Shown here: one piece after another, positions 10,835 through 41,043 of the stretch
Numbering within the stretch: the stretch's first letter is position 1
Layout: every line of letters begins with the position of its first letter
Origin: Chitinivibrionales bacterium
Lineage (GTDB): Bacteria; Fibrobacterota; Chitinivibrionia; Chitinivibrionales; WJKA01
Length of the DNA stretch: 46,862 nt
Assembly: GCA_014728215.1 (NCBI GenBank)
Contig: WJLZ01000142.1
Coordinates: forward strand, 1-46,862
Direction of reading: 5' to 3'
Notes under the pieces: model-generated
The model's input: only the letters and a program-made list of their open reading frames with translations
Told to the model about the DNA's origin: nothing
Database searches by the model: none
Position numbers and translations under genes: made by a program

Positions 10835-11950
10835 TTAGCCAAGATCGGTATGGGCCGCTTTGAGATTCCTGATTATCTCGATATTCTGCGGGCAATTCTT
10901 TTCGCATGCGCCGCATTCAATGCAAGAGTCGGCTTTTTTTCGCTTGTCATTCTCCTTTACGCCGATTTCCCGATAGAGCATCGTTGCCCGATCCCAGTAA
11001 CCGTAGAGCCGTCCGAGATTATACCATTCGAAAATGCGGCTGATTGCTACGTTGTTCGGGCAAGGCTCGCAGTAGCCGCAGCCGGTGCAGTAGAGCTTCT
11101 CCAGCTCCTTGATACGCAGGGCTGTGTCGTCGATGAGTCGTTTCTGTTCTTCGGTAAGCGGGGGAGTATCCGATGCGACCGAAATGTTTTCTTCAACATG
11201 ACTCATGGTACTCATTCCCGAAAGGGCAACCGAAACATTGGGATTGGCAAGAACATGCCGGAGCGCCAGTTCCGGCACTTTCCGGAGATGAGGAATATTT
11301 TCTTCGAGTATCGATGAGGTCGCGCCAAGCCGCCCCCCGGCAACAGGACCCATCACGACAATACCGATACCCTTTTCCGCAGCATAGGCAATGCCCTCTT
11401 CAAGCCCGCGGTTCAGGAGGTTGTATTGAAGGGTGATTACTTCCGGGTATCCCGTGTCGACCAGTTTCACGAGCGCTTCGGTGGAATCGTGAAAGGAAGT
11501 ACAGATATGCCTGATCAATCCCTGATCACGGGCTTTTTGCATCCATGCACTCAATCGCGGAGCCACATTTTCTTCATAATGGCGCCAGTTGATACCATGA
11601 TGACTATAGATATCGATACAATCGATATTAAGTCGATAAAGACTGTCTTCAAGGTTTTTCCACCATTCCTTTTCATCCGGACCATAGTAATGATTCTTTG
11701 TAGAAACAATTATTCTATCCCGCCACCCCCTGAGCGCTTCACCAATAGCCCGCTGGCTGTCGCGGTTACAGTAGCCTACTGCTGTGTCGATATAATTAAC
11801 CCCGGCTTCAAAAGCTCGATGGATCATGGGAACAGCCCGTTCACGGTCAACACACGCATCGATGCCTTCACCGGTCATGGGAAGGCGCATGGCGCCGAAT
11901 CCTAACTGGGATGCCATCAGGCCGGTTGTGCCGAGTTTTCGGTAAATCAT
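10835..11950 (-). CDS. Aldo/keto reductase with C-terminal two-cluster ferredoxin domain
   Basis: Residues 1-~270 form an aldo/keto reductase barrel with the complete tetrad: Asp55 and Tyr60 (DTAVGY), Lys85 (STKNH) and His118 (DIYSHH). The C-terminal ~100 residues carry two [4Fe-4S] motifs, CTGCGYCEPCPNN and CIECGACEKNCPQ. This is the common predicted ferredoxin-type AKR of anaerobes; it likely reduces an aldehyde or ketone using NAD(P)H with electron exchange through the clusters, but the substrate is unknown. The ATG at 11950 (preceded by GAGGAA) is preferred over the TTG one codon before it. It is probably monocistronic or paired with the Cys-motif gene downstream. Confidence 0.9.
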   Translation of the reverse strand: MIYRKLGTTGLMASQLGFGAMRLPMTGEGIDACVDRERAVPMIHRAFEAGVNYIDTAVGYCNRDSQRAIGEALRGWRDRIIVSTKNHYYGPDEKEWWKNLEDSLYRLNIDCIDIYSHHGINWRHYEENVAPRLSAWMQKARDQGLIRHICTSFHDSTEALVKLVDTGYPEVITLQYNLLNRGLEEGIAYAAEKGIGIVVMGPVAGGRLGATSSILEENIPHLRKVPELALRHVLANPNVSVALSGMSTMSHVEENISVASDTPPLTEEQKRLIDDTALRIKELEKLYCTGCGYCEPCPNNVAISRIFEWYNLGRLYGYWDRATMLYREIGVKENDKRKKADSCIECGACEKNCPQNIEIIRNLKAAHTDLG

Positions 11951-12175
11951 CAACGGTAATTCCTCTCAACCAGATATATAATTTGTCAGATTACCAGTCA
12001 ACAGGAAAATATATAATGATAGAGCCGGCAGTTTCATATCGGGGAACAGAGCAGGGGTACCGGTAAACGGAAAATTCTGGAAATCTATTTTATTGTAGCA
12101 TCCATGAGGTAAATATTTTATATTGTGACGTTTCTCTTTTTGGAAAAACAAATGTTGATTTATTGAGGAGCTATT

Positions 12176-26863: not shown

Positions 26864-26893
26864 AAAAAAAAGGCCGCTTATTATCAAGCGGCC
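26864..26893 (-). terminator. Strong terminator between convergent genes
   Basis: GGCCGCTT ATTATC AAGCGGCC is a perfect 8-bp stem; on the minus strand it is followed by eight T (A run at 26864-26871). It ends the minus-strand unit that starts near 29.0 or 30.0 kb, and probably also stops the plus-strand gene. Confidence 0.85.
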
Positions 26894-26926
26894 TCAGTTT
26901 ATCAAATCTTGTCAATCAAAAATGAC

Positions 26927-27472
26927 TTATTTTTTCTTCCTGCGTATTCCAAGTCTGATTCCGATAGGAATAAGAAAGGCAAGTCCTGCGCCGGTGCCAC
27001 AGCCGCTATCATCGTCATCATCCGATGGTGTTGGAGTCGGATCGGTTGTTGGATCTGAAGATCCTTCACCGAAAACTTTTACCGTGCATGAACCGATCGG
27101 ACGGCGTGAGAACTTCTGTTCACCACCAACCCACATCTCGATATCCAGATTGAGTTCGATATCGGTTTGGGTAACGAAGGTTGAATCGAAGATAACCGAT
27201 GTTGTATCGGCACCGGTTGCAACGGTAGTGATAATCTTTTCGAACGTACCGTCGGGACCGAAGTCGTATTTTGTTTTCACTGTATCTCCTGCCGGTACTC
27301 CATAAAACTGGACTTCCCAGGTAACGTTATAGGGTGAGGAATCGGCCCAGAAACATCCGGCGTTACCATCGAGCTTCTCGCCCTGCATAAGGATTTCGGG
27401 GATCTGCTGTGCAGAAGTAATAGTGCAGCCAATCAGGATTATCCCTGAAATCAGACGACCAAGCATTTTCAT
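26927..27472 (-). CDS. Exported protein with Cys-Gly C-terminal anchor signal
   Basis: A signal peptide (core LISGIILIGCTIT, cleavage after TSA) leads to a ~110-residue beta domain (VTWEVQFYGVP ... SVIFDSTFVTQTDIELNLDI). A Thr/Pro/Asp linker (DPTTDPTPTPSDDDDDSG) follows, and then a tripartite tail: CGTG, a hydrophobic helix AGLAFLIPIGI and a basic end RLGIRRKKK. This tail resembles MYXO-CTERM/Synerg-CTERM/GlyGly-CTERM sorting signals handled by a rhomboid-type protease. Three close ATGs occur; 27472 has the best spacing to GGAGG. The gene follows the outer-membrane protein gene by about 35 bases. Confidence 0.72.
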   Translation of the reverse strand: MKMLGRLISGIILIGCTITSAQQIPEILMQGEKLDGNAGCFWADSSPYNVTWEVQFYGVPAGDTVKTKYDFGPDGTFEKIITTVATGADTTSVIFDSTFVTQTDIELNLDIEMWVGGEQKFSRRPIGSCTVKVFGEGSSDPTTDPTPTPSDDDDDSGCGTGAGLAFLIPIGIRLGIRRKKK

Positions 27473-27507
27473 CATAAACCTCCTTGAAAAACGGTAAAGT
27501 AGTATGG

Positions 27508-29019
27508 TCAAACCTTAATTTCTAATCTCATTGCAAAATACCAGGGACCTTTGAAAATATAGTTTGGTGTAAGCTTTTTTATGCCCCGGGTGACTGGAAT
27601 GAATTCAGGACGGGCATCGGTAGTATAGGGACGGATATGATCGTTTGCGATCTGACCGAAGAGTGAGAAGTGATTGCCAAAATGCTTTGATGCATAGACC
27701 GACCATTTCCAGTCATCGCTTTCATACTGCTCGGCAAAGGTTTTGTATTGCGGGTCGGTTCCGAGTTTTGAGTAATAACTTTCGGAGTTAAGGCTGTCGG
27801 GATGACCACCTCGCATATCCCAGACCGGGAGCTGCTCCTGATAAACCTGATAATAGGATTCTTCATACCGAAGAGGATAATATTCCGCTTCAAAGGCGAG
27901 GACATCAAGAACTTTTAACGTCGGCAGGTTGATTCCGAACATCAGTGGAATTCTCTGAAGAATCTTATCATAAAACAGGGGGTAATCTTTGATACCCAGA
28001 ACCGAAGCTTCAGCATACACCTTAAGATCTTCTTCCCCAAAACCATCCCAGGTGATAAAATATTTCGGGTCAAGGGTAATCCTGGCCATCGTTTTTATGC
28101 CCTTGAATGTATAATTTTCGATCCCCTGGGACATGCTGTCAACATACCGAGCGCTATCCTCGCCGGTAACTCCAAGTGGTGCAACCGGATAGTTTTCATC
28201 AACCCACATATCATCTTTATATCTGCTGCTTTTGTTTTCCGGAGTTGTTTTTTCTCCATCTGCCGGTAAGATATGATTGAGGGTAGCTCCCAAGCCCACA
28301 TCAACGAAAGGAATAGGCTGATAAGCGCCGATATAACTGAGTGATAAGTCGTACATGGGAGGAAAATCACGCTCCATATGAAGAAGGACACTCTGCTGAA
28401 GGGTGCTGTCGAGAAGGTGACTGGTAAGCTGGACACCCTGGGCAAAATAACGGGGCCCGATAAGGGCTTCATTATGCCGGTCGGAAAAGAAATCGCCACC
28501 GATCATATCCCATCCACCGGTTTGAACAATACCTGGATAGCAATTACTTCTCAGGAGATATTCACCAAGATTTTTCGCTTCTTTATTGTACTTAACCGAA
28601 AAGGAGCCGAACTGGAGTGAAAAAGGAGCCATTTCGGGGCCGAAAGTATAAATACCGGTGGCCGTAGGAATAAAGGCACGAAATTTTGTGTACAGCGTTT
28701 GCGGCATACCATCAAGTTCGGGAAAGGAATACCAGAATTGACCGCCTACACCAATTTTTAATTTCAGGTGATCGCCGATCATGACCTCCTGCAATACCAT
28801 TGCCGAGGTCCGCTGGATCCACTGGCCGTTGGCATTTTCCTCGATATAAAGCTCGTCTTCACCTCTGATAATCCGTCCACCTTCAATGCTCGTTTTGATA
28901 ACTAAAGGCTTTCGGGTTACCTCTGGTTCTTCTTTTTTATCGGTTTCCGCTCCGACGATAGCAACCATGGAAATCATCGTGAGGAAACAGATAATTCGAA
29001 TCGCAGCACTTCTGTTCAT
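27508..29019 (-). CDS. Outer-membrane beta-barrel-like protein
   Basis: The 503-residue product has a signal peptide (core IICFLTMISMVAIVG, cleavage after VGA). Many amphipathic strands with aromatic girdle residues follow, for example LKLKIGVGGQFWYSF, APFSLQFGSFSVKYN and the last strand GPWYFAMRLEIKV, which ends in a hydrophobic residue close to the C-terminus as in outer-membrane barrels. I recognise no specific family. The ATG at 29019 is preceded by AAGGAG. It is followed 35 bases on by the Cys-Gly-anchored protein and preceded 66 bases by the ThuA gene, so a joint envelope unit is likely. Confidence 0.65.
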   Translation of the reverse strand: MNRSAAIRIICFLTMISMVAIVGAETDKKEEPEVTRKPLVIKTSIEGGRIIRGEDELYIEENANGQWIQRTSAMVLQEVMIGDHLKLKIGVGGQFWYSFPELDGMPQTLYTKFRAFIPTATGIYTFGPEMAPFSLQFGSFSVKYNKEAKNLGEYLLRSNCYPGIVQTGGWDMIGGDFFSDRHNEALIGPRYFAQGVQLTSHLLDSTLQQSVLLHMERDFPPMYDLSLSYIGAYQPIPFVDVGLGATLNHILPADGEKTTPENKSSRYKDDMWVDENYPVAPLGVTGEDSARYVDSMSQGIENYTFKGIKTMARITLDPKYFITWDGFGEEDLKVYAEASVLGIKDYPLFYDKILQRIPLMFGINLPTLKVLDVLAFEAEYYPLRYEESYYQVYQEQLPVWDMRGGHPDSLNSESYYSKLGTDPQYKTFAEQYESDDWKWSVYASKHFGNHFSLFGQIANDHIRPYTTDARPEFIPVTRGIKKLTPNYIFKGPWYFAMRLEIKV

Positions 29020-29085
29020 CAATAGCTCCTTATGAAAAACAAATAAATAAGAAAATCATGACTATAAGTGATCAAATGGTACATA

Positions 29086-29982
29086 TTAGAAGTTGGTAGA
29101 GTTTTCCCAGGCTGTATCCTGCGCTGCCCAGAACAGAGCGTTGGTCACCATCTGTTCCATGTTACTACCCTGTTTAAAAGAGGTCAAAAGATGGCCGATG
29201 GTAATATAAAAACTCCGTCCGCCGTCATAATCTTCCTGGCACCATGCAGTAGGATGAAAATCGCCTTCTTCACCGCCCTGAAAAGTGTTTTCATCGATAG
29301 TGAGCAGTGTTGTCACCTTAGAATTATTTTGCGGTTTGTCCATAACTTCATTTTCAACATAGTTATACCATTCATCTTTTATGTTGAAATTGGCATCGAC
29401 ATTTCTGAGCAGCACGTGGTCTGACAGTGCCGGATTAATATTTACATCGGCATAAACCATTGCGGTATGGTTTTTCATAACACCGCCAACGAGTTTGGCA
29501 AACCATTCCCATAACTGATAGTTGGCTGCCGTACCGTGCCAGCCGATATGCCCACCGCCGTTGCTGATATAGCTTTTGTATGCTTCCTTTTCGTCGGGAC
29601 TGAGGACTTCTTTGGTGTTGTTGTTCCAGACAACAACATTATAACGGGGAAGGTTCCGGTTGGTGAAATAACCCGCCGAATTATTGCTAACTTCTACTTC
29701 AAAACCGTATTTCTGACCTATACGTTTAACCATTTCGGCGCCTTCTTCGGTCGACATGTGTTTAAACCCACCCATTTCCGTAAAAACCAGCACCCGTTCC
29801 AGCTTGTTTTTTGTGGCCGGCGTCGGCATCAGTACTTCCATCTCTTCTTCGGAATACTTGTAGTAATTATCCGACGGTTCCAGACTGAAGTCGCACGTGG
29901 CAATAAGCACAACAGAAACAGTGAATGCTATATAATACAGCATATTCCACTTAAATTTCTTTGAACCTTTCTTTTTGATCAT
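29086..29982 (-). CDS. ThuA-domain lipoprotein
   Basis: The 298-residue protein carries a lipoprotein signal (core YIAFTVSVVLIATC; Cys is the acylation site) and then a ThuA (trehalose utilisation, class I glutamine-amidotransferase-like) domain: RVLVFTEMGGFKHMST, YNVVVWNNNTKEVLSPDE, GGGHIGWHGTAANYQLWEWF, and HPTAWCQEDYDGGRSFYITI. ThuA-like proteins are linked to 3-keto-glycoside and related sugar metabolism. Being surface- or periplasm-anchored and next to a Tat aldo/keto reductase suggests sugar processing outside the cytoplasm; this is inference. Confidence 0.88.
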   Translation of the reverse strand: MIKKKGSKKFKWNMLYYIAFTVSVVLIATCDFSLEPSDNYYKYSEEEMEVLMPTPATKNKLERVLVFTEMGGFKHMSTEEGAEMVKRIGQKYGFEVEVSNNSAGYFTNRNLPRYNVVVWNNNTKEVLSPDEKEAYKSYISNGGGHIGWHGTAANYQLWEWFAKLVGGVMKNHTAMVYADVNINPALSDHVLLRNVDANFNIKDEWYNYVENEVMDKPQNNSKVTTLLTIDENTFQGGEEGDFHPTAWCQEDYDGGRSFYITIGHLLTSFKQGSNMEQMVTNALFWAAQDTAWENSTNF

Positions 29983-30171
29983 AATTCTACCACCCTGTAC
30001 TTAAAAATGAGAAAAAAAGGACCTTCACATATTCGAAAATCAAAAACAATATCGAAAATTTTATAACCCGATAATTATGTGTGTTTATAAACGAAAGTAT
30101 AGCCGAATCGATATATTTTTTACAAAGAGGCACTCACTGTTGCCCGCAGAGACTGCCCCCTTAAGAATCTT

Positions 30172-31251
30172 TTATACTACAGCGCCGTCATGGTAATCTC
30201 TCCGGGTCCAGACAAGTTCACCCGGAACAGTTAAATGAGCCAGCCGTTTCTCGAAGTTTTTCATCGCTGTACTGCTCATTCGTTTAGATAAAGAATTTTT
30301 AACCAGATCGGCGTTTCCTTTTACTTCGGCTGGAGTCGTATGCCCGATCAATGCGGAGGAGACCCCTTTGGAGTGTGCATAGTTGAAAAGCTCTTCGGCT
30401 GTAATGGGATTTCCATTGGTATCGGCCTCTCCAACCAGGCCTTTCATGACTTTCATACCGAAAACCGCGACATTATGCTGCTTTGCCACGGGAAGAGTCA
30501 CTGAAGCAAACTCGATGTATTTTGCATTGCCGTCACCAAGACTTCCGCCCGTGGGTGTCATGGGAATGATGACAAAATCGGGTTTTGGATCGAGCCCTTC
30601 AATCGCCTCTTTCATTTTGGTGGCGCTTTCCATGCCTGACAGACCGATATATCGGACTTTTCCGCTACTTTTGAGACTGACCAGTTTCTGCCAGATAGTC
30701 GACTGCATAAAAGAAATGTCGTCGGAGCCCACAATATTCCATGCCGAATAAAAATCGACATAGGTTGTTTGAAGCCTGGTTAAGCTCTGGTCAAGTTGTG
30801 TGTCGATTGCATCGAGAACCGCCTGTTGTTCCGCTGCGGTCTGATTTGCATTGGGGCGATTGGTTGTTTTTGTCGATATGAGAACTTTATCACGATGTTT
30901 AGAAAGAACCTTTCCGTAGCGTTCTTCTGATATATTAAAGGGAATATACGCATCCCCGTCTTTGCGAGTCAGGTGATAATTGGGACCGGTATCATAGAGA
31001 TTGATTCCGGAGTTTACGCATTCTTCCAGAACACTCTGTGCTTCGGCGTCGGAAAGCCCAAAGAAAACCGCACCGCCTCCCATACCTATCACGGATATTT
31101 CCTCTGTACCCGATCCGATAGCAACACTCTGTTTCGGAACCGTGGCTTTTTCTTCAGGATTGGTTGAACACGATGTAATAACCGGCAACGCCGATAAAGC
31201 AGCCGTATTCTTAATGAATTCCCGTCGTGAAAAATTATTTGTTGATTTCAT
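30172..31251 (-). CDS. Tat-exported aldo/keto reductase lacking the catalytic His
   Basis: The 359-residue protein starts with a twin-arginine signal (SRREFIK) and a lipobox-like end (PVITSC), so it is exported folded and perhaps lipidated. The barrel has GSGTEEISVIGMGGGAVFFG, the Asp and Tyr of DTGPNYH and the Lys of LISTKTT. At the catalytic His place (usually D-x-Y-x-x-H) it reads DFYSAW, so His is Trp. The NADP-binding C-terminal region (SSALIGHTTPAEVKGN) is kept. ATG 31251 follows AAGGAG. It is 19 bases after the DUF2271-like gene. Confidence 0.88.
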   Translation of the reverse strand: MKSTNNFSRREFIKNTAALSALPVITSCSTNPEEKATVPKQSVAIGSGTEEISVIGMGGGAVFFGLSDAEAQSVLEECVNSGINLYDTGPNYHLTRKDGDAYIPFNISEERYGKVLSKHRDKVLISTKTTNRPNANQTAAEQQAVLDAIDTQLDQSLTRLQTTYVDFYSAWNIVGSDDISFMQSTIWQKLVSLKSSGKVRYIGLSGMESATKMKEAIEGLDPKPDFVIIPMTPTGGSLGDGNAKYIEFASVTLPVAKQHNVAVFGMKVMKGLVGEADTNGNPITAEELFNYAHSKGVSSALIGHTTPAEVKGNADLVKNSLSKRMSSTAMKNFEKRLAHLTVPGELVWTRRDYHDGAVV

Positions 31252-31270
31252 AATGACGGCTCCTTTCAAA

Positions 31271-31825
31271 TCAATTTGCAGTATAGGTTGCGCTTACATT
31301 GGATAAAGCATCACTAAATCCTGTATGGTCCTGGATAAGAGTGGCGCTGCTTTGAGACTGATCGCTGCCTATTTCAATTTCGCCGGCGGCGATAAAATTG
31401 GTGCCGACAGAATCCATGAGCATGATTTCAACCATGTAGAGGTAGGTCCCGGGTGAAAAGTCGGTAGGGATTTCTATGGTAGTTGTCTGGCTTCCAGCGG
31501 TAGGAGTTGCGGCTGCAACTGCGTTGGGGTCGCCGGAATAGCTTGTCTGCCAACGCGAATTAATAACATCGCTATATTCTAAGGCTCCTCCTGTCCTTAT
31601 CCAATCTGAAACAAATACTGTTTTGACAAAGGTGCTGTCGGTTGTTTCGAGCCAGACTGCATCTGATCTGCCCGATTTTGCAATATTCGAGGAATAGGAG
31701 ATTTGCAGGGTTCCCATCTTTTCCTCAACCGGATCCACTGTAGTATCTCCACCATCATCACAATTTGAAGCTAAAAGAAAAGCCATCGCTGCGGTAAGTG
31801 AAAAAACGGTAAGTAGTCGTTTCAT
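31271..31825 (-). CDS. DUF2271-like lipoprotein
   Basis: The 184-residue product has a signal with LLASNC (lipid-modified Cys at about residue 22), then an Asp/Val-rich linker and a beta domain whose core VWLETTDSTFVKTVFVSDWI matches DUF2271 (flavin-associated periplasmic protein pattern W-x-E-[DT]-x-x-x-x-F-V-K-T). Later strands include YLYMVEIMLMDSVG. Members often accompany PepSY or FMN-transferase (ApbE) genes; none is visible here. It starts the reductase unit. Confidence 0.7.
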   Translation of the reverse strand: MKRLLTVFSLTAAMAFLLASNCDDGGDTTVDPVEEKMGTLQISYSSNIAKSGRSDAVWLETTDSTFVKTVFVSDWIRTGGALEYSDVINSRWQTSYSGDPNAVAAATPTAGSQTTTIEIPTDFSPGTYLYMVEIMLMDSVGTNFIAAGEIEIGSDQSQSSATLIQDHTGFSDALSNVSATYTAN

Positions 31826-32284: not shown

Positions 32285-33697
32285 ATGAGTGAAAAGCAAG
32301 GTCACTCGGTTAAAGGTTTGCCCATGTTTGCGGAGGCGAGTCCGGAAGCATTGGCAAAGGACAAGGCGCAACTGGCCGAGCTTGAAAAGCTCCCCACTTT
32401 AGAAAAATGGAAAGGATACTGGGCCAGGACCGGTCCTGGCTGGTTTCAGAGCGCGATGACGCTTGGCGGCGGGACCGCGTTTGCTTCTCTCTTTGCCGGC
32501 GCCTTTTTAGGATATAAACTCCTCTGGCTTCAGCCGGTCTCCATGTTTTTAGGTATTATCATGCTGTCGGCGATGTCTCATCAGTCTTTATCTGTTGGCG
32601 AAAAGCCATTTTCCGCGATCAGTCGACACATTCATCCGAGCATTGCATGGGCCTGGGCCCTTGGAGCGCTTATTGCCAACATAATATGGCATTTCCCTCA
32701 ATATGCGCTCTGCTCGGCAATGATTGCAGATATCATTTCTGCTATTACCCGATGGGACCCCGGCGCTACCGCTCATGGTATCCTTTTACTGGTTATCGGA
32801 ATTTGTATTCTCTTCGTTGCCACTTGGATATCATGGAATTATGCCAAAGGAAAAAAAGGTATAAAGCTCGTTGAGCGAATTATTAAATGGAATATCTGGA
32901 TAATAATATTCTGTTTTGCCGCCGTGGTTATTCGTCAGAGTTTTGCCGGTGAGGTCGCATGGGGCAAGGTATTTCTCGGATTTATTCCCTTTTCCTATAT
33001 ACCCAGAGAGCATGTGGGTGTTTCGATTATGATCGCCGGTTTCTCGGCCGCAGTCGGTATCAATATGACTTTTCTGTTCGGTTATTCTTACCTTGCCAAA
33101 GGGTGGGGAAAAGAGCACCGGGGAATAGCGAAGTTTGACCTGGTGACCGGTATGTGGATACCCTATACTCTTGCTACGGGGCTCATGATTATCGCCGCGG
33201 CATGTACTATCCACGGAAGCGCTGAATTTGACGGTACCAAAATATCACCAATTCAGGCTGCATCGATGCTCCAGGGGGCGGGAATCCCGCTCTTCTTATC
33301 CCGGGTGATTTTCGGCCTTGGAATCGCCGGAATGACATTCAATGCAATCAATATGCAAATGCTGACTTCCGGATTCGCTGCATGTGAAATGTTTAATGTC
33401 GAACCCGGTGGTTGGAAATACAAACTTGCCTGTATGATCCCTGCTCCCGGCTTTCTGGGTGTGGTGCTCTGGAAATATATGGGATCATGGATCGCCATTC
33501 CAACCTCGGCAATATGCGGCCTTATGCTTCCTATTGCGTATATCTCATTTTTCCTGCTCAATAACAAAAAAGAGTATCTTGGAAAGGATATGCCTAAAGG
33601 AGGGCTCCGATTCTGGTGGAATCTCGGCATGCTTACCGCAATTGGTATTTCAATCGTTTCGGTCGTCTATTATTTGTATAATATATTCGGCAAGTAA
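32285..33697 (+). CDS. Divergent NRAMP-superfamily transporter
   Basis: The 470-residue membrane protein has 10-12 helices. Its first helix region, GPGWFQSAMTLGGGTAFASL followed by FAGAFLGYKLLW, is the NRAMP first-helix pattern, but the metal-binding DPGN is replaced by GGGT. The helix 6 counterpart (GFSAAVGINMTFLFGYSYLA) lacks the MPH motif. So it has the NRAMP fold without the known manganese/iron ligands, and substrate prediction is open (Mg, other cation, or non-metal). The ATG is preceded by GAGGAGG. It is a single-gene unit followed by a terminator-like hairpin. Confidence 0.82.
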   Translation: MSEKQGHSVKGLPMFAEASPEALAKDKAQLAELEKLPTLEKWKGYWARTGPGWFQSAMTLGGGTAFASLFAGAFLGYKLLWLQPVSMFLGIIMLSAMSHQSLSVGEKPFSAISRHIHPSIAWAWALGALIANIIWHFPQYALCSAMIADIISAITRWDPGATAHGILLLVIGICILFVATWISWNYAKGKKGIKLVERIIKWNIWIIIFCFAAVVIRQSFAGEVAWGKVFLGFIPFSYIPREHVGVSIMIAGFSAAVGINMTFLFGYSYLAKGWGKEHRGIAKFDLVTGMWIPYTLATGLMIIAAACTIHGSAEFDGTKISPIQAASMLQGAGIPLFLSRVIFGLGIAGMTFNAINMQMLTSGFAACEMFNVEPGGWKYKLACMIPAPGFLGVVLWKYMGSWIAIPTSAICGLMLPIAYISFFLLNNKKEYLGKDMPKGGLRFWWNLGMLTAIGISIVSVVYYLYNIFGK

Positions 33698-34026: not shown

Positions 34027-36252
34027 ATGACGGCAGAGCACAAGGGCACACACCATGACGGAACCTCTTTAGCGAATTTTTTTGTTTTGATTTCATCCGC
34101 TATTTGTATGCTGATGGCATTTTCTACCGCGGGTTACAGTGCATGGAACATAACCACCGATTGCTCTCAAAATGGTGGAGAATTGAAGCACTTCTGGAAT
34201 TGTGTGGGGGGGGATCTCAAATATAACACTTCCCGGGGAGAGAGAGAGGGTGCATATAATACGTTCATTTCACCGCTTCAGCAACAGAATTTATCGCTTA
34301 TCGGCACGGTGCCCCATGGTAGTGTCAAATATATACGCTATCTCTTTTTGATGGACCTGGTTGGAGGCTCCGATTTTGTATCGTCAAACCCCACCTATGA
34401 TTTCACAAAGTTCGATGAAGCGATTACTGCAATTCTTGATGCAGGACTCAAGCCTTTTATTCAATTGATGGGGTATCCGGCAGATTTCATCTCCTTTTCC
34501 AGGAATGATTCCACCTTCAATGAGCAGAAAGACGCCTGGCGCAAATTCATGAAAGAATTTATTAACCATTTAACTGCTACCTATGGCGGGAGTGAAGTCA
34601 AAAGCTGGTATTTCGAAGAATGGAATGAACTGGGAACCGCTTTCTGGCCCTATGGCCCGCATAAATACAACCTTCTTTATGAAGCGATCCGTGCCGGTAT
34701 TGATGAGGCTGACCCGGAAGTGAAGCTTGCTGCGCCGGCTTCCGAATATATGCTGGAAAAATTCTTTGCCCACATAACCGACAGCACCAATGCTTATACG
34801 GGCGAAACTGGAACGAGACTGGATGTTTTTTCGGTCCATGTCAAGGGCGATCATGCCGATGACGATTTGAACCTCCGGGCGCGTACCGTTACCGATAAGG
34901 AAATTGAAGAGTATCATGAGCTTCTGGATCTGGGCTTTACCGGTGTCTCCGATATTCCTTTCATGAATACCGAAGCCGATCCGATTATCGGATGGAACAG
35001 CATTGGAGAACTCAATCCGGACACCCGTGAGTTTGTGTCAATTTTCTATTGGCGGGCCAATACCGAATACGCCGCCTATATTGCATCATGCGCCTATCAG
35101 CACCAGAAACGTATTGTTGACAGCGCAGGCATAGACCTCAAACTGATCAGCAACGATAATGGCTTTATCACCTCATCCATGGATTACCGTAAAAGTTGGC
35201 TGGTGCGTTCTCATTTTGTTGCCTTCGGCGACAGTACGCAGTTCAGCACAGTAAAAAAACCGGTCCATAATGTCATGACCATGCTCGGAATGCTCGGAAA
35301 TCAGCAGTGTGTTGTTACCCAGGGAGAACCGGATGCATCCAACAGTGATTCGCTGGGAATATTCGTGACAAAGAACGGTGATCAAGTTGCGGCACTCCTG
35401 TTTAACTACCGGTATACTCAACAGGATGTCAATCTGACTTTTAATAATCTTCCCTTTGATTCTGCTGTGCTGGCCCATTACCGCATCGACAACGAGCATA
35501 CTAATCCTTACCCGATCTGGCCCGACGACACCACCTCGAATCCACCGCAGGACAAACTCGATGAGATGCGGAGACACAACGAGCTGGAATACTACCTTGG
35601 CTATGAGCCCGGCATTATCAGACCTTCAAACGGCTCCTATTCCATGGGATTCAAGCTTCCGAACAATGGTATCAGCCTGATCGTGATGACCCCCCCGCTG
35701 GCAAATGAGGTCGATACACTCGATGCGCAGGATGTCCGGGTGGAAGAATACGATGGTCTTTATGGAAAAGAATATCTGGTTTTATGGGACGACCTTCTCT
35801 CAAAACGGATTAAAACCTACGAACTGCTCTATTCCGAATCAGAGCAAGGCGATTACGCCCGGGTTAACGATCAGGATATCCTCTGCACCGGTTTTATTCA
35901 TTCGGGACCCTCACAGGAAGGTTTTTACAAAGTGCAGGCACTCGATTATTGGGACAATCCGGTTTCGGAATACGAAATACCTGTTGTAAATCCTGTGCGC
36001 ATGGCTCGCACCGGAATGCTCCACCCCTCTACCATGAGGTTGCCTGCATACGACGGTATGTCTTCGTACAAGATTTCGCTTCCCGCGGGCATACAGGGTT
36101 TTTCGATATATACGGTTAACGGCAGAAAAGTCTACTCCTATTCGAGAAAAAACAGCGCCGTGGCGGAACAGGTACAGCTTGGTCGGAAAAATCTCACCAG
36201 GGGGGTCTATATGATCAGGCTGGAAGCCGATAATACGTTTGCAGGCCTTTGA
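34027..36252 (+). CDS. Secreted GH39-like glycosidase with sorting tail (copy 1)
   Basis: The 741-residue protein has an N-terminal signal (core FFVLISSAICMLMAF after a long polar head) and a GH39/clan-A barrel. The acid/base is Glu201 in YFEEWNELG and the nucleophile Glu316 in FMNTEADP; both carboxylates are present. A beta-sandwich region follows, then a Fn3-like stretch (VEEYDGLYGKEYLVLWDD) and a Por-type tail (GFSIYTVNGRKVYSYS ... LTRGVYMIRLE). GH39 enzymes are beta-xylosidases or iduronidase-like. The protein at 36649-38745 is a close paralogue on the other strand. A strong AAAGGAG ribosome site fixes the start. Confidence 0.85.
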   Translation: MTAEHKGTHHDGTSLANFFVLISSAICMLMAFSTAGYSAWNITTDCSQNGGELKHFWNCVGGDLKYNTSRGEREGAYNTFISPLQQQNLSLIGTVPHGSVKYIRYLFLMDLVGGSDFVSSNPTYDFTKFDEAITAILDAGLKPFIQLMGYPADFISFSRNDSTFNEQKDAWRKFMKEFINHLTATYGGSEVKSWYFEEWNELGTAFWPYGPHKYNLLYEAIRAGIDEADPEVKLAAPASEYMLEKFFAHITDSTNAYTGETGTRLDVFSVHVKGDHADDDLNLRARTVTDKEIEEYHELLDLGFTGVSDIPFMNTEADPIIGWNSIGELNPDTREFVSIFYWRANTEYAAYIASCAYQHQKRIVDSAGIDLKLISNDNGFITSSMDYRKSWLVRSHFVAFGDSTQFSTVKKPVHNVMTMLGMLGNQQCVVTQGEPDASNSDSLGIFVTKNGDQVAALLFNYRYTQQDVNLTFNNLPFDSAVLAHYRIDNEHTNPYPIWPDDTTSNPPQDKLDEMRRHNELEYYLGYEPGIIRPSNGSYSMGFKLPNNGISLIVMTPPLANEVDTLDAQDVRVEEYDGLYGKEYLVLWDDLLSKRIKTYELLYSESEQGDYARVNDQDILCTGFIHSGPSQEGFYKVQALDYWDNPVSEYEIPVVNPVRMARTGMLHPSTMRLPAYDGMSSYKISLPAGIQGFSIYTVNGRKVYSYSRKNSAVAEQVQLGRKNLTRGVYMIRLEADNTFAGL

Positions 36253-36648: not shown

Positions 36649-38745
36649 TTACTGGTGCACATACCGGACAACGTGTATACCCTGGCCGAACCGGGACATA
36701 TTCACCGGAACTACCGTTGCCTTGTCGGCCGTGTTTCTGCGATATTCGAATACTTTTCTTCCCTGAGCGTTAAAGATATTGAATCCGGTAATGCCTTTCC
36801 GGAGTGTAATCCTGCTCTTTATACCGGCTTCGGGGATTACAAGCATGCGATCGGTGAGTTTCGCATGGGTAATCGTCGCACGGCCGGCTCTGATCCATTT
36901 TGCCGCGGTGCCGTCTGACCGGCGGCCCCAGTAATCGGTTGCCCTGACAGTATAATAGCCTTCAGTTTCAGGGCCTGCATGGATAAATGCCGTTGAAAGG
37001 AGGTCGTAATTGTTGACCCGCTCCCAGGGACCATTGGGAGTTTCCGAATGCATGACCTCGTATGTTTGCAGATGGTAATTGTCCAAATCGTCCCATGTAA
37101 CCAGATATTCAGGGCCATAGATACCATCATACTGCTCCACGGTAACGCCGGTGGGGTCCATCGGGGCATCGACCGGTTTGCCGCTCAAAACAACAAGTGA
37201 GACACTGTTTTCGGGAAGCATAAAATTGTGTGAAAAAGTTCCCCCGCTGATTGTCACCTTATCGATCGGCAATACGTATCCGGGCTCCTGATTGTTCCTC
37301 AGAAGTTCCAGCGTGTCCTCGGGTGGTATGCTGTCGCTTTGCCAGTGGGCATAGGGGTTACAACGTGTGCTGTCGATGATATAATGTGCCAGCGCCGCTT
37401 CGGTAAAAGGAATATTGTTGATTTCCAGTTCAATTTCATCGGATCCCGCTTTCCGATTGCTGAAAAGAACCACCACCTGATTATCATCACGGGTTGTTGC
37501 AAGTACTCCTTTATTCCATAAGGTATCGCTCAGATTTTCATTGTTACACTCGACCCGCTTGTCTCCCAGGAGCGAAAGCAGGGTCATAACGGAATGGGCC
37601 GGTTTCTTAACATAGGTGAAACTGTCGGACTTTGCGTTAATTTCAAATTTATTCGGCATTGGATTCCCGAATTTGGCAAACTGGCCCCGCCACATCCATG
37701 GTCCGATGAACCCGTTGTCGTTACTGAGGACCGGATAGTTAATACCGGCCGAATCGATGATACGGATCTTTTTCTGGATCACCTGATTGGCAATGAAGGC
37801 GGCATATTCGGGGAGAGGACGGAAATATTTCGGTGAACTGAACCCGATTGCCGGATCGGCTTCATCGTTGAAAAAAGGTTTATCGGCAAGTGAAGGCCAG
37901 GTGCGGGCAAGGCTGTCGTGGTATTGCAGCTCAAGCTTGGTCAAACCGGCGGCCCAATCTTTCAGATGGACCGAAATGAAATCGATCGGTGTTCCGGTAT
38001 CGCCGGTCACATAATTTTCTTCATTAACGATATGATTAAAGAAAACTTCCCACTCTTCCTTGGAAGCAGGCCCGCCGACCCGTAATGAAGAATCCGCTTC
38101 CTTTATGCCGGCGACGGTATAATCGTAAAATCGTGCATAGGTCTCGGCTCCGTTGGGCCAGAATCCGGTGCCGACTTCATTCCAGACTTCAAAATACCAG
38201 TCCTGAACGGCTTCCAGGCCATATCTGTTGATATAATGTTCGGCCAATGCTTTCACCAGCTTGCGCCAGTCTTCGTTCTGGGTTAAATCATAATAGTTAT
38301 TGTGATCGAATTCACCACCAGGATTGCCCATGAGTTCAAGAAAGGGCGTCAAACCACTGGCATTGTAGAGATCAAAGAGGGAATCAAGCTTGGAAAAGTC
38401 GTAAACAGGATTTTCGCCTCTCAGATCGGTACCTTCAACAAGGGTGAGAAGCCAGTGCATGCGGCAGTATTTCTGACCATTGTGGGGTACCGCGCCCAGA
38501 AGCGCAAAGTGAACCCGCCAGTCCGGATCGAAAAGCCGCATGAGTGTCGCCTGATCATCAACCCCTCCGACAACCATACCAACAGCATTCCAGAATTTGT
38601 CCACTTCGCTGATTTCATTGCTGCAATCAACGGTAACACTCGTGGCGGCGGATACGGGCAGAGCCAGTATGCCAAGAGTGAAAATCAGGGCAAGTGCGGT
38701 GGTGATCCTTTTCCCGGCGGATTGTCGGCAGGGAGTAAATGCCAT
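36649..38745 (-). CDS. Secreted GH39-like glycosidase with sorting tail (copy 2)
   Basis: The 698-residue protein has a signal peptide (core ALALIFTLGILAL, cleavage after VSA) and the same architecture as copy 1: acid/base Glu190 in YFEVWNEVG, nucleophile Glu295 in FFNDEADP, a Fn3-like stretch (VEQYDGIYGPEYLVTWDD) and a sorting tail (GFNIFNAQGRKVFEY ... FGQGIHVVRYV). Copies 1 and 2 share many aligned stretches and converge on each other. A xylan- or xyloside-type activity is likely by family, but specificity is not visible. AAGGAG stands before the ATG. Confidence 0.87.
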   Translation of the reverse strand: MAFTPCRQSAGKRITTALALIFTLGILALPVSAATSVTVDCSNEISEVDKFWNAVGMVVGGVDDQATLMRLFDPDWRVHFALLGAVPHNGQKYCRMHWLLTLVEGTDLRGENPVYDFSKLDSLFDLYNASGLTPFLELMGNPGGEFDHNNYYDLTQNEDWRKLVKALAEHYINRYGLEAVQDWYFEVWNEVGTGFWPNGAETYARFYDYTVAGIKEADSSLRVGGPASKEEWEVFFNHIVNEENYVTGDTGTPIDFISVHLKDWAAGLTKLELQYHDSLARTWPSLADKPFFNDEADPAIGFSSPKYFRPLPEYAAFIANQVIQKKIRIIDSAGINYPVLSNDNGFIGPWMWRGQFAKFGNPMPNKFEINAKSDSFTYVKKPAHSVMTLLSLLGDKRVECNNENLSDTLWNKGVLATTRDDNQVVVLFSNRKAGSDEIELEINNIPFTEAALAHYIIDSTRCNPYAHWQSDSIPPEDTLELLRNNQEPGYVLPIDKVTISGGTFSHNFMLPENSVSLVVLSGKPVDAPMDPTGVTVEQYDGIYGPEYLVTWDDLDNYHLQTYEVMHSETPNGPWERVNNYDLLSTAFIHAGPETEGYYTVRATDYWGRRSDGTAAKWIRAGRATITHAKLTDRMLVIPEAGIKSRITLRKGITGFNIFNAQGRKVFEYRRNTADKATVVPVNMSRFGQGIHVVRYVHQ

Positions 38746-38853: not shown

Positions 38854-41043
38854 TTATTCGAAATTAATTACTCTGAAATGTTGGTTGCTTTTTTCCGTTT
38901 TGATTTGACAAATATAGGCATTTCCCGGAAATCCTCCGGCCCTCCTCAAATAAAGTGTTTGTTTGCCCGGATTTATCCTGTTGAATTTTCCGGCCGCAAT
39001 GGCCCTTCCAAGAAAATCGTAGAGCGTAATTTCGAGGGGACTCTTTGATTTCGAAGAAAATATCAGCTCAATTACAATGTGATTGCTTTTCTTCGATGTT
39101 ACCCTCACAGTAGTGGCGTAAGGTCCGGTTGATCCAATAAATCGAGACACAGAGGCATCCAAAGTCCGGTCGGTTATTTCGCCGATCCATCCACCTGCAG
39201 CATCAACTTCCTGAAGGATAATGTTTTGTATGGAGTCGTATTGAGGGGTGCGGGATGTCGAATCCAGGTGATTTATCCACTGGTTATCGCCTTTGTGTTT
39301 GATGCTGATAACATCGTGTGTTTCAGCCCATGAGATATTTGATTGCAGGAGGGTGCTATCGACATTGTCATCCATATAAACAGCATAGGCCCGCCGTTTA
39401 TCGAAGGGCATGGTCGTGTAATGAGTAAGATTATCTTTAAATTCATTATAGGCCCCGCATGACCAGGTATAATAGGCGCCACCATCGGCGAGCTTCAGCA
39501 TGCAGTCGACCACGATATTTTTCTCCACAATATTACTACGCGAATGAAGATAGGGGAGTACATTGCCCCGGGTAAAAAGCATGCCCGGGATTTCATTCCA
39601 TCTGATATGATGCATTGCTTCACCATTACCATAGGTATCCACCGCACCTGTACCGGGGCCCCGGTTAATTGTTTCATAGCTGGTTCCGACAATGGAAACC
39701 CCACAGTAGGGGAGATCGTGCATGTAATTATGAGAAATGGTATTATGCCCGCTCTGGAACAGCGAAACGGCACATCCATGCCAGTAGACCAGTCCTACAT
39801 GGTGAATATGATTACGGATAACCGAATTGTATTTCTGTTCATCTTTTGTCCCCGGACCGTATCCGTACATCTGGACTCCACCCGAGCCGCACCAGGCGAG
39901 CTCATTGCCTTCGATGGCGACATTCTGGACATGGTGATCGAGAGCTATTGCATTGGCACCGGTGTGGATCACCCGGCAATTGCGGACTGCGCAGTATTCG
40001 ACACCCTGCAGATAAAGAGCGCCGTCAGGATTTTCGAAATTTCTCTTTGTCCATTCGTCGGGCCACTGGTCGGCGGGCATACGATCGGCATAGGCAAAGG
40101 TTATGCCTTCAAATTCGATATGGTGGACCCATTGACTTGTGCTTTCTTCACCTTGCAGCCGGATAAGGTTGTAAAGACGGGGTGCGTCGACCTGCTTATT
40201 ATTCATGGTATCATCGGGCGGCCAGTAGTAAACTTTACCGATACCCGAATCGACACACCATTCGCCGGGGGTATCCAATGCCGAAATGATATTTTCTATG
40301 CGAAAAGGCGCCCCGGTACTTCGAAAACCGGTAATGATATTTTTGCTGTGCCGCATGGCTGAATTCAATGAAGTATCGATATTCCGCAACACGGAGAGAT
40401 CATTTTTCCAGTCGATGGGGGCAACATTTATTTCAAGACATCCGTTGGCTGGAGGAGAGGAAAGGTAGCCGGAAGGAAGTACGATGTACTGACCGATAGG
40501 GGACACACTTTGCCAGCTTTCGAGGTCGGGCCATTCTTCCTGACCACCCACAAAATCTTTCCAGATATCATGATCGGGCTTCATTGCCCGTCGTTGTTCG
40601 ATCCCTTCAACAATAAGCGAATGAAACAACCATCCGGTATCGATATCGGCCTCCCAGAGTTTTCCCGCCGCCGCGGCAGGAGTACCGGGAGGATCAATTG
40701 TAACCTTGTGCCACCCGGTAATTGTTGCCCCACCATGAATGATAACGTTTTCACCGGGAAATGAAGAAAAAACAACCTTTGCATCGGCGGTACCGCTGTG
40801 CTCAGGGGTGAATGTAAGGGTGCTGTCGAGGTAATAGGTTCCCTCGCGAATAATGACTGAAATTGCTTCTGTCTTGCCTGATAATGCAACAGCCTCTGCA
40901 GCTTTATGCAAACTCCTGAAAGGCTGGGCCTCCGTACCCGGATTTGTATCAAGCCCTGTTGGTGAAACATAAAAAGAAAGAGCAAAAAGAGAGGGTTGGA
41001 AAGTAAAAAAGAAAAAAATAAGGGTACGAAAAAAACGTTGCAT
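38854..41043 (-). CDS. Secreted GH141-like beta-helix glycosidase with sorting tail
   Basis: The 729-residue protein has a signal peptide (core LIFFFFTFQPSLFAL) and the opening FYVSPTGLDTNPGTEAQPFR typical of right-handed beta-helix enzymes. The run NHIHHVGLVYWHGCAVSLFQ, then GHNTISHNYMHDLPYCGVS, is like GH141 (fucosidase/xylanase) enzymes. A C-terminal sorting module ends it (ITLYDFLGRAIAAGKFN ... NAYICQIKT). It follows the copy-2 GH39 gene on the same strand, upstream in transcription by 108 bases, so both may share a transcript. Substrate is inferred only as a plant-type polysaccharide. Confidence 0.78.
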   Translation of the reverse strand: MQRFFRTLIFFFFTFQPSLFALSFYVSPTGLDTNPGTEAQPFRSLHKAAEAVALSGKTEAISVIIREGTYYLDSTLTFTPEHSGTADAKVVFSSFPGENVIIHGGATITGWHKVTIDPPGTPAAAAGKLWEADIDTGWLFHSLIVEGIEQRRAMKPDHDIWKDFVGGQEEWPDLESWQSVSPIGQYIVLPSGYLSSPPANGCLEINVAPIDWKNDLSVLRNIDTSLNSAMRHSKNIITGFRSTGAPFRIENIISALDTPGEWCVDSGIGKVYYWPPDDTMNNKQVDAPRLYNLIRLQGEESTSQWVHHIEFEGITFAYADRMPADQWPDEWTKRNFENPDGALYLQGVEYCAVRNCRVIHTGANAIALDHHVQNVAIEGNELAWCGSGGVQMYGYGPGTKDEQKYNSVIRNHIHHVGLVYWHGCAVSLFQSGHNTISHNYMHDLPYCGVSIVGTSYETINRGPGTGAVDTYGNGEAMHHIRWNEIPGMLFTRGNVLPYLHSRSNIVEKNIVVDCMLKLADGGAYYTWSCGAYNEFKDNLTHYTTMPFDKRRAYAVYMDDNVDSTLLQSNISWAETHDVISIKHKGDNQWINHLDSTSRTPQYDSIQNIILQEVDAAGGWIGEITDRTLDASVSRFIGSTGPYATTVRVTSKKSNHIVIELIFSSKSKSPLEITLYDFLGRAIAAGKFNRINPGKQTLYLRRAGGFPGNAYICQIKTEKSNQHFRVINFE

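Follow-up and report, generated by a model that had tools for sequence, protein, structure and literature searches.

The window analysed here is the 46,862-nucleotide contig 142 of a Chitinivibrionales genome from the phylum Fibrobacterota (5.0 Mb, 96% complete, 229 contigs), in which five co-oriented open reading frames (ORFs) occupy the minus strand at positions 26927-31825. An earlier note on this DNA had read them as five consecutive genes for exported products; all five ORFs were found in place, and each product carries an export signal, as called by inspection of the N-termini. The note was thus right that the block is real and came close on what kind of block it is, but the five genes are not conserved together as a single unit. 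Its conserved core is the pair formed by a ThuA protein (29086-29982) and a porin-type outer-membrane barrel (27508-29019). The porin family is the new element of the block and is more interesting than the five-gene set. We give about an even chance to the reading that the block is an envelope unit importing and processing an oxidised (keto-) sugar or glycoside.

With 504 amino acids, the porin is long for its fold class. With an alignment of 24 relatives, no sequence match was obtained in the PDB and no meaningful match in Pfam or NCBIfam; each of the two libraries gave one isolated, sub-significant non-porin match among the 24 members. An AlphaFold2 model built from 91 sequences reached a predicted local distance difference test score (pLDDT) of 85.4 and a predicted template modelling score of 0.86. 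Foldseek matched the model to known structures with E-values down to 6e-11, and the VIA-align Z-scores were 19.5 to 5o78, 19.0 to OprB (4gey) and 18.5 to VhChiP (7eqm), over 260-330 residues. Fold neighbours from both programs were OmpM1, OmpK35/OmpF, OprB and VhChiP. The model confidently predicts a closed porin-type barrel like the solved 16-strand porins, the strands not being individually counted, and so bears out the earlier suggestion of an outer-membrane protein as a possible port.

Relatives of the porin were collected by scanning 84,980 species with two peptide patterns; this gave 151 confirmed relatives, of which the best 80 were kept and 76 loci fetched. All 76 loci came from metagenome-assembled genomes (MAGs) of Fibrobacterota (titled Fibrobacteres, Fibrobacteria, Chitinivibrionales, Chitinispirillaceae or Fibrobacter, with one MAG titled only 'bacterium' and placed in the phylum by genome search); as two patterns were used and the best 80 kept, the family may also occur outside the phylum. 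Some genomes held 31-44 matching porin segments, part of them fragments of one gene. Genes of the loci were called by the longest-ORF rule, and the label of each gene cluster comes from one scanned representative. Recurring neighbours were ThuA, PF06439, GSDH, CBM6, TPR, YVTN/MauG and HZS_alpha proteins. ThuA stood directly beside the porin for 25 of the 30 ThuA genes, 24 of them on the same strand, and ThuA-containing loci were present in 11 MAGs. Among immediate neighbours ThuA made up 25 of 134 genes, compared with 4 of the 395 more distant genes (Fisher p 2e-12, a nominal value, as the loci were chosen by porin similarity and are interrelated). Counted from the ThuA side, a porin adjoins six of about 12 ThuA clusters and lies within 6 kb of two more. 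Genes of the PF06439 cluster touched a porin in 14 of 21 cases.

The same pairing was seen in a midpoint-rooted tree of 124 porins, which is to be read as a split and not as a proven clade: all 43 ThuA-linked porins, including that of the window, fell in one half (54 rows; support of 98 in the Shimodaira-Hasegawa-like approximate likelihood ratio test, SH-aLRT), and the opposite half held all 30 that are linked to the 3-keto-disaccharide hydrolase family PF06439, together with all eight linked to YVTN/MauG. The ThuA label changed 11 times on the tree, compared with 35.8 times in shuffles. As a separate observation, porins of the other half lie beside a YVTN/MauG-like protein and a protein of 900 amino acids that carries the hydrazine synthase alpha middle domain, at L142:827-6601 and also at L119, L126, L129, L132 and L136. 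The MAGs with these loci belong to Chitinispirillaceae, Chitinivibrionales and Fibrobacter.

The ThuA protein of the block scored 172.3 bits with PF06283 (cut-off 33.4 bits) over profile positions 1-209 of 209, and thus holds the whole domain. It has a PDB relative in 4jqs and is 80% identical to its counterpart in the genus relative, G001. Residues H75, H149, E204, W205, Y206, H243 and H264 are invariant in alignment A3. ThuA was found at E 1e-10 in just 7 of 40 genomes of the order. The earlier description of this protein as lipid-anchored stood as regards family and export; anchoring itself depends on an atypical lipobox, IATC. The strict lipobox rule asks for A, G or S directly before the Cys, and it is broken both here, by T, and in the motif ASNC of the DUF2271-like protein, by N. 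Related porin-adjacent ThuA proteins mostly start with ordinary-looking signal peptides. Judged from these motifs, lipid anchoring of both proteins is plausible at most.

The aldo/keto reductase (AKR; 30172-31251) belongs to PF00248 with 87.9 bits (cut-off 24 bits). Its N-terminus, MKSTNNFSRREFIKNTAALSALPVITSC, contains a canonical twin-arginine translocation (Tat) motif, SRREFIK, and a lipobox, ITSC, that follows the strict rule, in agreement with the earlier call of a Tat-exported reductase with a lipobox. Its counterparts in G004 and G010, from another family of the same order, have the same Tat-lipobox start with the lipobox IASC. The reported change of the catalytic His to Trp was confirmed by alignment with AKRs of the phylum and L-galactose dehydrogenases, in which D87, Y92 and K128 of the tetrad are kept and W171 takes the place of the His. 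Since its codon is TGG, W171 is not a one-base error from His. The exported counterparts in G004 and G010 keep the His, and among the remaining AKRs in the comparison Trp takes its place in just two, both cytosolic proteins of the phylum (G000:C44 and one from G034) with Cys-rich tails of 4Fe-4S type by inspection; on account of these two, the exchange was rejected as a feature unique to the exported AKR. Identity of the AKR was 65% to the genus relative and 29-33% to the exported counterparts in G004 and G010. When the AKR by itself was used in a pattern scan of the 84,980 species, no close relative came up. An AlphaFold2 model from two sequences had a pLDDT of 44, unusable for a test of the TIM barrel and the NADP(H) pocket. 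The window encodes a second AKR at 10835-11953 (minus strand), which has 4Fe-4S domains and retains the His of the tetrad.

The retention of three tetrad residues, the occurrence of Trp in the same place in the sequences of cytosolic 4Fe-4S AKRs and the His of the exported counterparts in G004 and G010, of which those at least may be active, all speak against a catalytically dead AKR repurposed as a binding or scaffold protein, with the function carried by ThuA and porin only. We consider such a protein rather unlikely, despite W171, the 28-31% identity to the nearest full-length exported relatives and the improbability of a reducing cofactor beyond the cytoplasm. Export by the Tat pathway means that the AKR must fold and bind any cofactor before export, and would thus allow a pre-bound cofactor. 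The enzyme is most readily understood as an add-on to the ThuA-porin core, and would make a test case for a retained-cofactor oxidoreductase.

The genus relative (G001, contig 521, WJKA01000607, a Chitinivibrionales MAG) keeps the tail protein, porin, ThuA and AKR in the order of the window with 65-81% protein identity, up to the end of its contig inside the AKR gene. Because gene order and protein identity are conserved to this degree, the block is not noise. Conservation of the gene order in relatives, which the earlier note had named as a check, held for these four; apart from weak partial matches, the tail protein was not seen outside the genus, and the DUF2271-like gene was found in its own genome only, 1 of 61 genomes, the contig of the genus relative ending before that position. 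Exported AKR-ThuA pairs were present in the window, G001, G004 and G010. In the latter two (L073:7241-11228 and L074:10420-14463) the exported AKR and ThuA are adjacent and are followed by a His-rich NicO-like transporter (PF03824 55.5 bits in L073); the nearest porin lies about 5.5 kb downstream.

ThuA was also found in other settings. A cytosolic group of AKR, short-chain dehydrogenase/reductase (SDR) and ThuA is encoded at G000:C47:5155-7586 (L083) and in G002:C51 (L183), with 75-81% identity between the two; the group in G000 lies near a glycoside hydrolase family 3 (GH3) protein and a CE2-type esterase. In G007, ThuA stands beside a Gfo/Idh-like gene, assigned by sequence inspection. Searches of plasmids with the AKR and ThuA gave distant relatives, with 24-39% identity among the matches listed. 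Of three plasmid ThuA regions, one was near a pyrroloquinoline quinone (PQQ)-dependent sugar dehydrogenase and one near a TonB receptor and GH43; the one plasmid AKR region inspected had no ThuA.

Gaps between the five genes, from the DUF2271-like gene onwards, are 19, 189, 66 and 32 bases. The starts of the AKR, porin and tail protein were revised to ATG codons at 31251, 29019 and 27475, each preceded by a Shine-Dalgarno-like AAGGAG. A terminator-like hairpin with an 11-pair stem, a 4-base loop and a T tract (26870-26895, minus strand) closes the block; the total of such sites across the region was no higher than in shuffles. The five genes could instead be chance neighbours with separate promoters and roles, so that only the ThuA-porin pair is meaningful. 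The 189-base gap between AKR and ThuA, with its promoter-like matches, and the failure to find the DUF2271-like and tail genes beyond genome or genus at useful similarity would fit that account; promoter-like matches numbered 18 against 10.6 expected (standard deviation 3.3), are no evidence of function and were not used as such. However, the genus relative keeps the order AKR-ThuA-porin-tail, AKR and ThuA are again adjacent in a second family of this bacterial order and the other gaps are short, and we regard mere chance neighbourhood as unlikely. A conserved regulatory element in the 189-base gap was considered and rejected, the identity with the genus relative being scattered.

The two outer genes of the block encode small exported proteins. 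The first (31271-31825) has a Cys-containing signal peptide and had been labelled DUF2271, a label that was not upheld: its score with PF10029 was 17.9 bits, below the cut-off of 27.3 bits, and a paralog at G000:C71 was sub-threshold as well, with 26.1 bits. We refer to it as DUF2271-like. The tail protein (26927-27475) consists of an acidic linker and a C-terminal tail of SGCGTG, a hydrophobic stretch and RRKKK; its identity in the genus relative is 65-69%, with the tail conserved, and beyond the genus weak partial matches were obtained. It had no Pfam match. Its membership in a larger CTERM set found no support: in a pattern search of its own genome, the exact GCGTG tail turned up in this protein only. 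Both proteins are probably lineage-specific accessories.

For the unit as a whole, the porin would pass an oxidised sugar across the outer membrane, and the exported ThuA would work on it in the periplasm or at the membrane surface. Going by the inference made for its family, ThuA could hydrolyse or isomerise a 3-keto-sugar. The AKR, exported through the Tat pathway, may carry out a reduction or epimerisation with retained NADP(H), or serve as a binding subunit. The earlier proposal of sugar or ketosugar chemistry outside the cell is kept as the best reading; throughout the phylum the porin family is linked with ThuA and, elsewhere in its tree, with 3-keto-disaccharide hydrolases. In favour of this reading count the adjacency of ThuA and porin, the split of the porin tree, the recurring GSDH and CBM6 neighbours, the AKR-ThuA linkage that recurs at lower taxonomic rank, the likeness of the porin model to general and sugar porins and the two GH39 genes next to the block. 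The data establish the five genes and their families, the porin fold as predicted, the linkage of ThuA with porins and the sorting of porins by partner gene; we infer the ketosugar substrate, each of the reactions, cofactor retention, membrane anchoring and co-transcription. Keto-sugars are the leading substrate class because PF06439 is named 3-keto-disaccharide hydrolase and because a 3-keto-glycoside pathway is known (PMC10628242).

Several findings weigh against this oxidised-sugar reading. Neither a C3-oxidising enzyme nor a PF06439 hydrolase is encoded among the five genes, and the two PF06439 domains of the genome lie elsewhere, in open frames of about 1,200 amino acids. None of the Gfo/Idh proteins checked in the genome has an obvious Tat signal. 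The AKR lacks the tetrad His, and the periplasm is not a compartment where NAD(P)H would be expected. The function of ThuA need not be the same in all family members. In G004 and G010, the 5.5 kb between ThuA and porin hold unrelated-looking genes, namely the one for the NicO-like transporter and two whose products lack a Pfam match, and the 189-base AKR-ThuA gap is poorly conserved in the genus relative.

We also weighed a role of the block in envelope metal or redox chemistry, with ThuA and AKR as scaffolds or metal-binding proteins. An Nramp-family transporter gene (32285-33697, plus strand; PF01566 59.2 bits) lies divergently 460 bases upstream of the block, and such a unit would also accommodate the NicO-like transporter beside AKR-ThuA in G004 and G010, the DUF2271-like scores and the invariant His residues of ThuA. 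The metal-transporter families differ by locus, however, and none is among the annotated recurring neighbours of other ThuA-porin pairs; the DUF2271 score is sub-threshold, and the recurring porin partners include several carbohydrate families. A metal or redox unit is therefore improbable.

Just beyond the block are genes for two GH39-family proteins, at 34027-36252 (plus strand; with a weak Por secretion tail) and 36649-38745 (minus strand). Next to them, at 38854-41043, comes a beta-helix protein that matches GH141 weakly.

In the open literature no described system with this gene set was found, as the earlier note had supposed, and no open-licence paper was found that joins ThuA with DUF1080, 3-keto-sugars or Fibrobacter. 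The passages returned by a keyword search of two Fibrobacterota genome papers held little on sugar passage through the outer membrane beyond TonB-dependent import. The porin family, multicopy in some genomes and with subgroups that each go with certain exported enzymes, offers a testable uptake system and points to chemistry on oxidised sugars outside the cytoplasm. The rhizobial thuAB genes reportedly form a trehalose-oxidation system. The block resembles it in a ThuA domain far above the cut-off and in a ThuA gene whose neighbour belongs to a family of NAD(P)-type oxidoreductases (AKR in the block, Gfo/Idh-like in G007), but its ThuA is exported rather than cytosolic and paired with a porin, and no ThuB-type Gfo/Idh or ABC importer adjoins it, the Gfo/Idh genes of the genome being on other contigs. 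3-Keto-glycosides are deglycosylated in Agrobacterium by GlycDH-OGE-hydratase-Gfo (PMC10628242). The block shares with such pathways the idea of sugar oxidation, cleavage and 3-keto-sugar reduction, and PF06439 and ThuA recur beside related porins; it differs in lacking a C3 oxidase, an eliminase and PF06439, in exporting its enzymes and in having an AKR instead of Gfo/Idh.

The predicted barrel is like those of the 16-stranded general and sugar porins OmpF/OmpK35, OprB, VhChiP and OmpM1 (Z 18.5-19.5), but the identity is 6-11%, the chain is longer, with low-confidence loops, and matches no family in Pfam or NCBIfam, and many paralogs per genome are sorted by partner enzyme. From the SusCD-type polysaccharide utilisation loci the family differs in its porin-type barrel, which is not a TonB-dependent receptor, and in having no SusD (none among the five proteins); it is like them in having outer-membrane transporter paralogs each tied to an exported sugar-enzyme set. 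We tentatively suggest, at somewhat less than even likelihood, that the Fibrobacterota porins form a large family, so far undescribed, in whose tree each part goes with a single type of exported partner (ThuA, 3-keto-disaccharide hydrolase or YVTN/MauG). The family may be a porin-based counterpart of SusCD for oxidised sugars, of which the block in the window would be a ThuA-type member with an additional, cofactor-carrying exported reductase.

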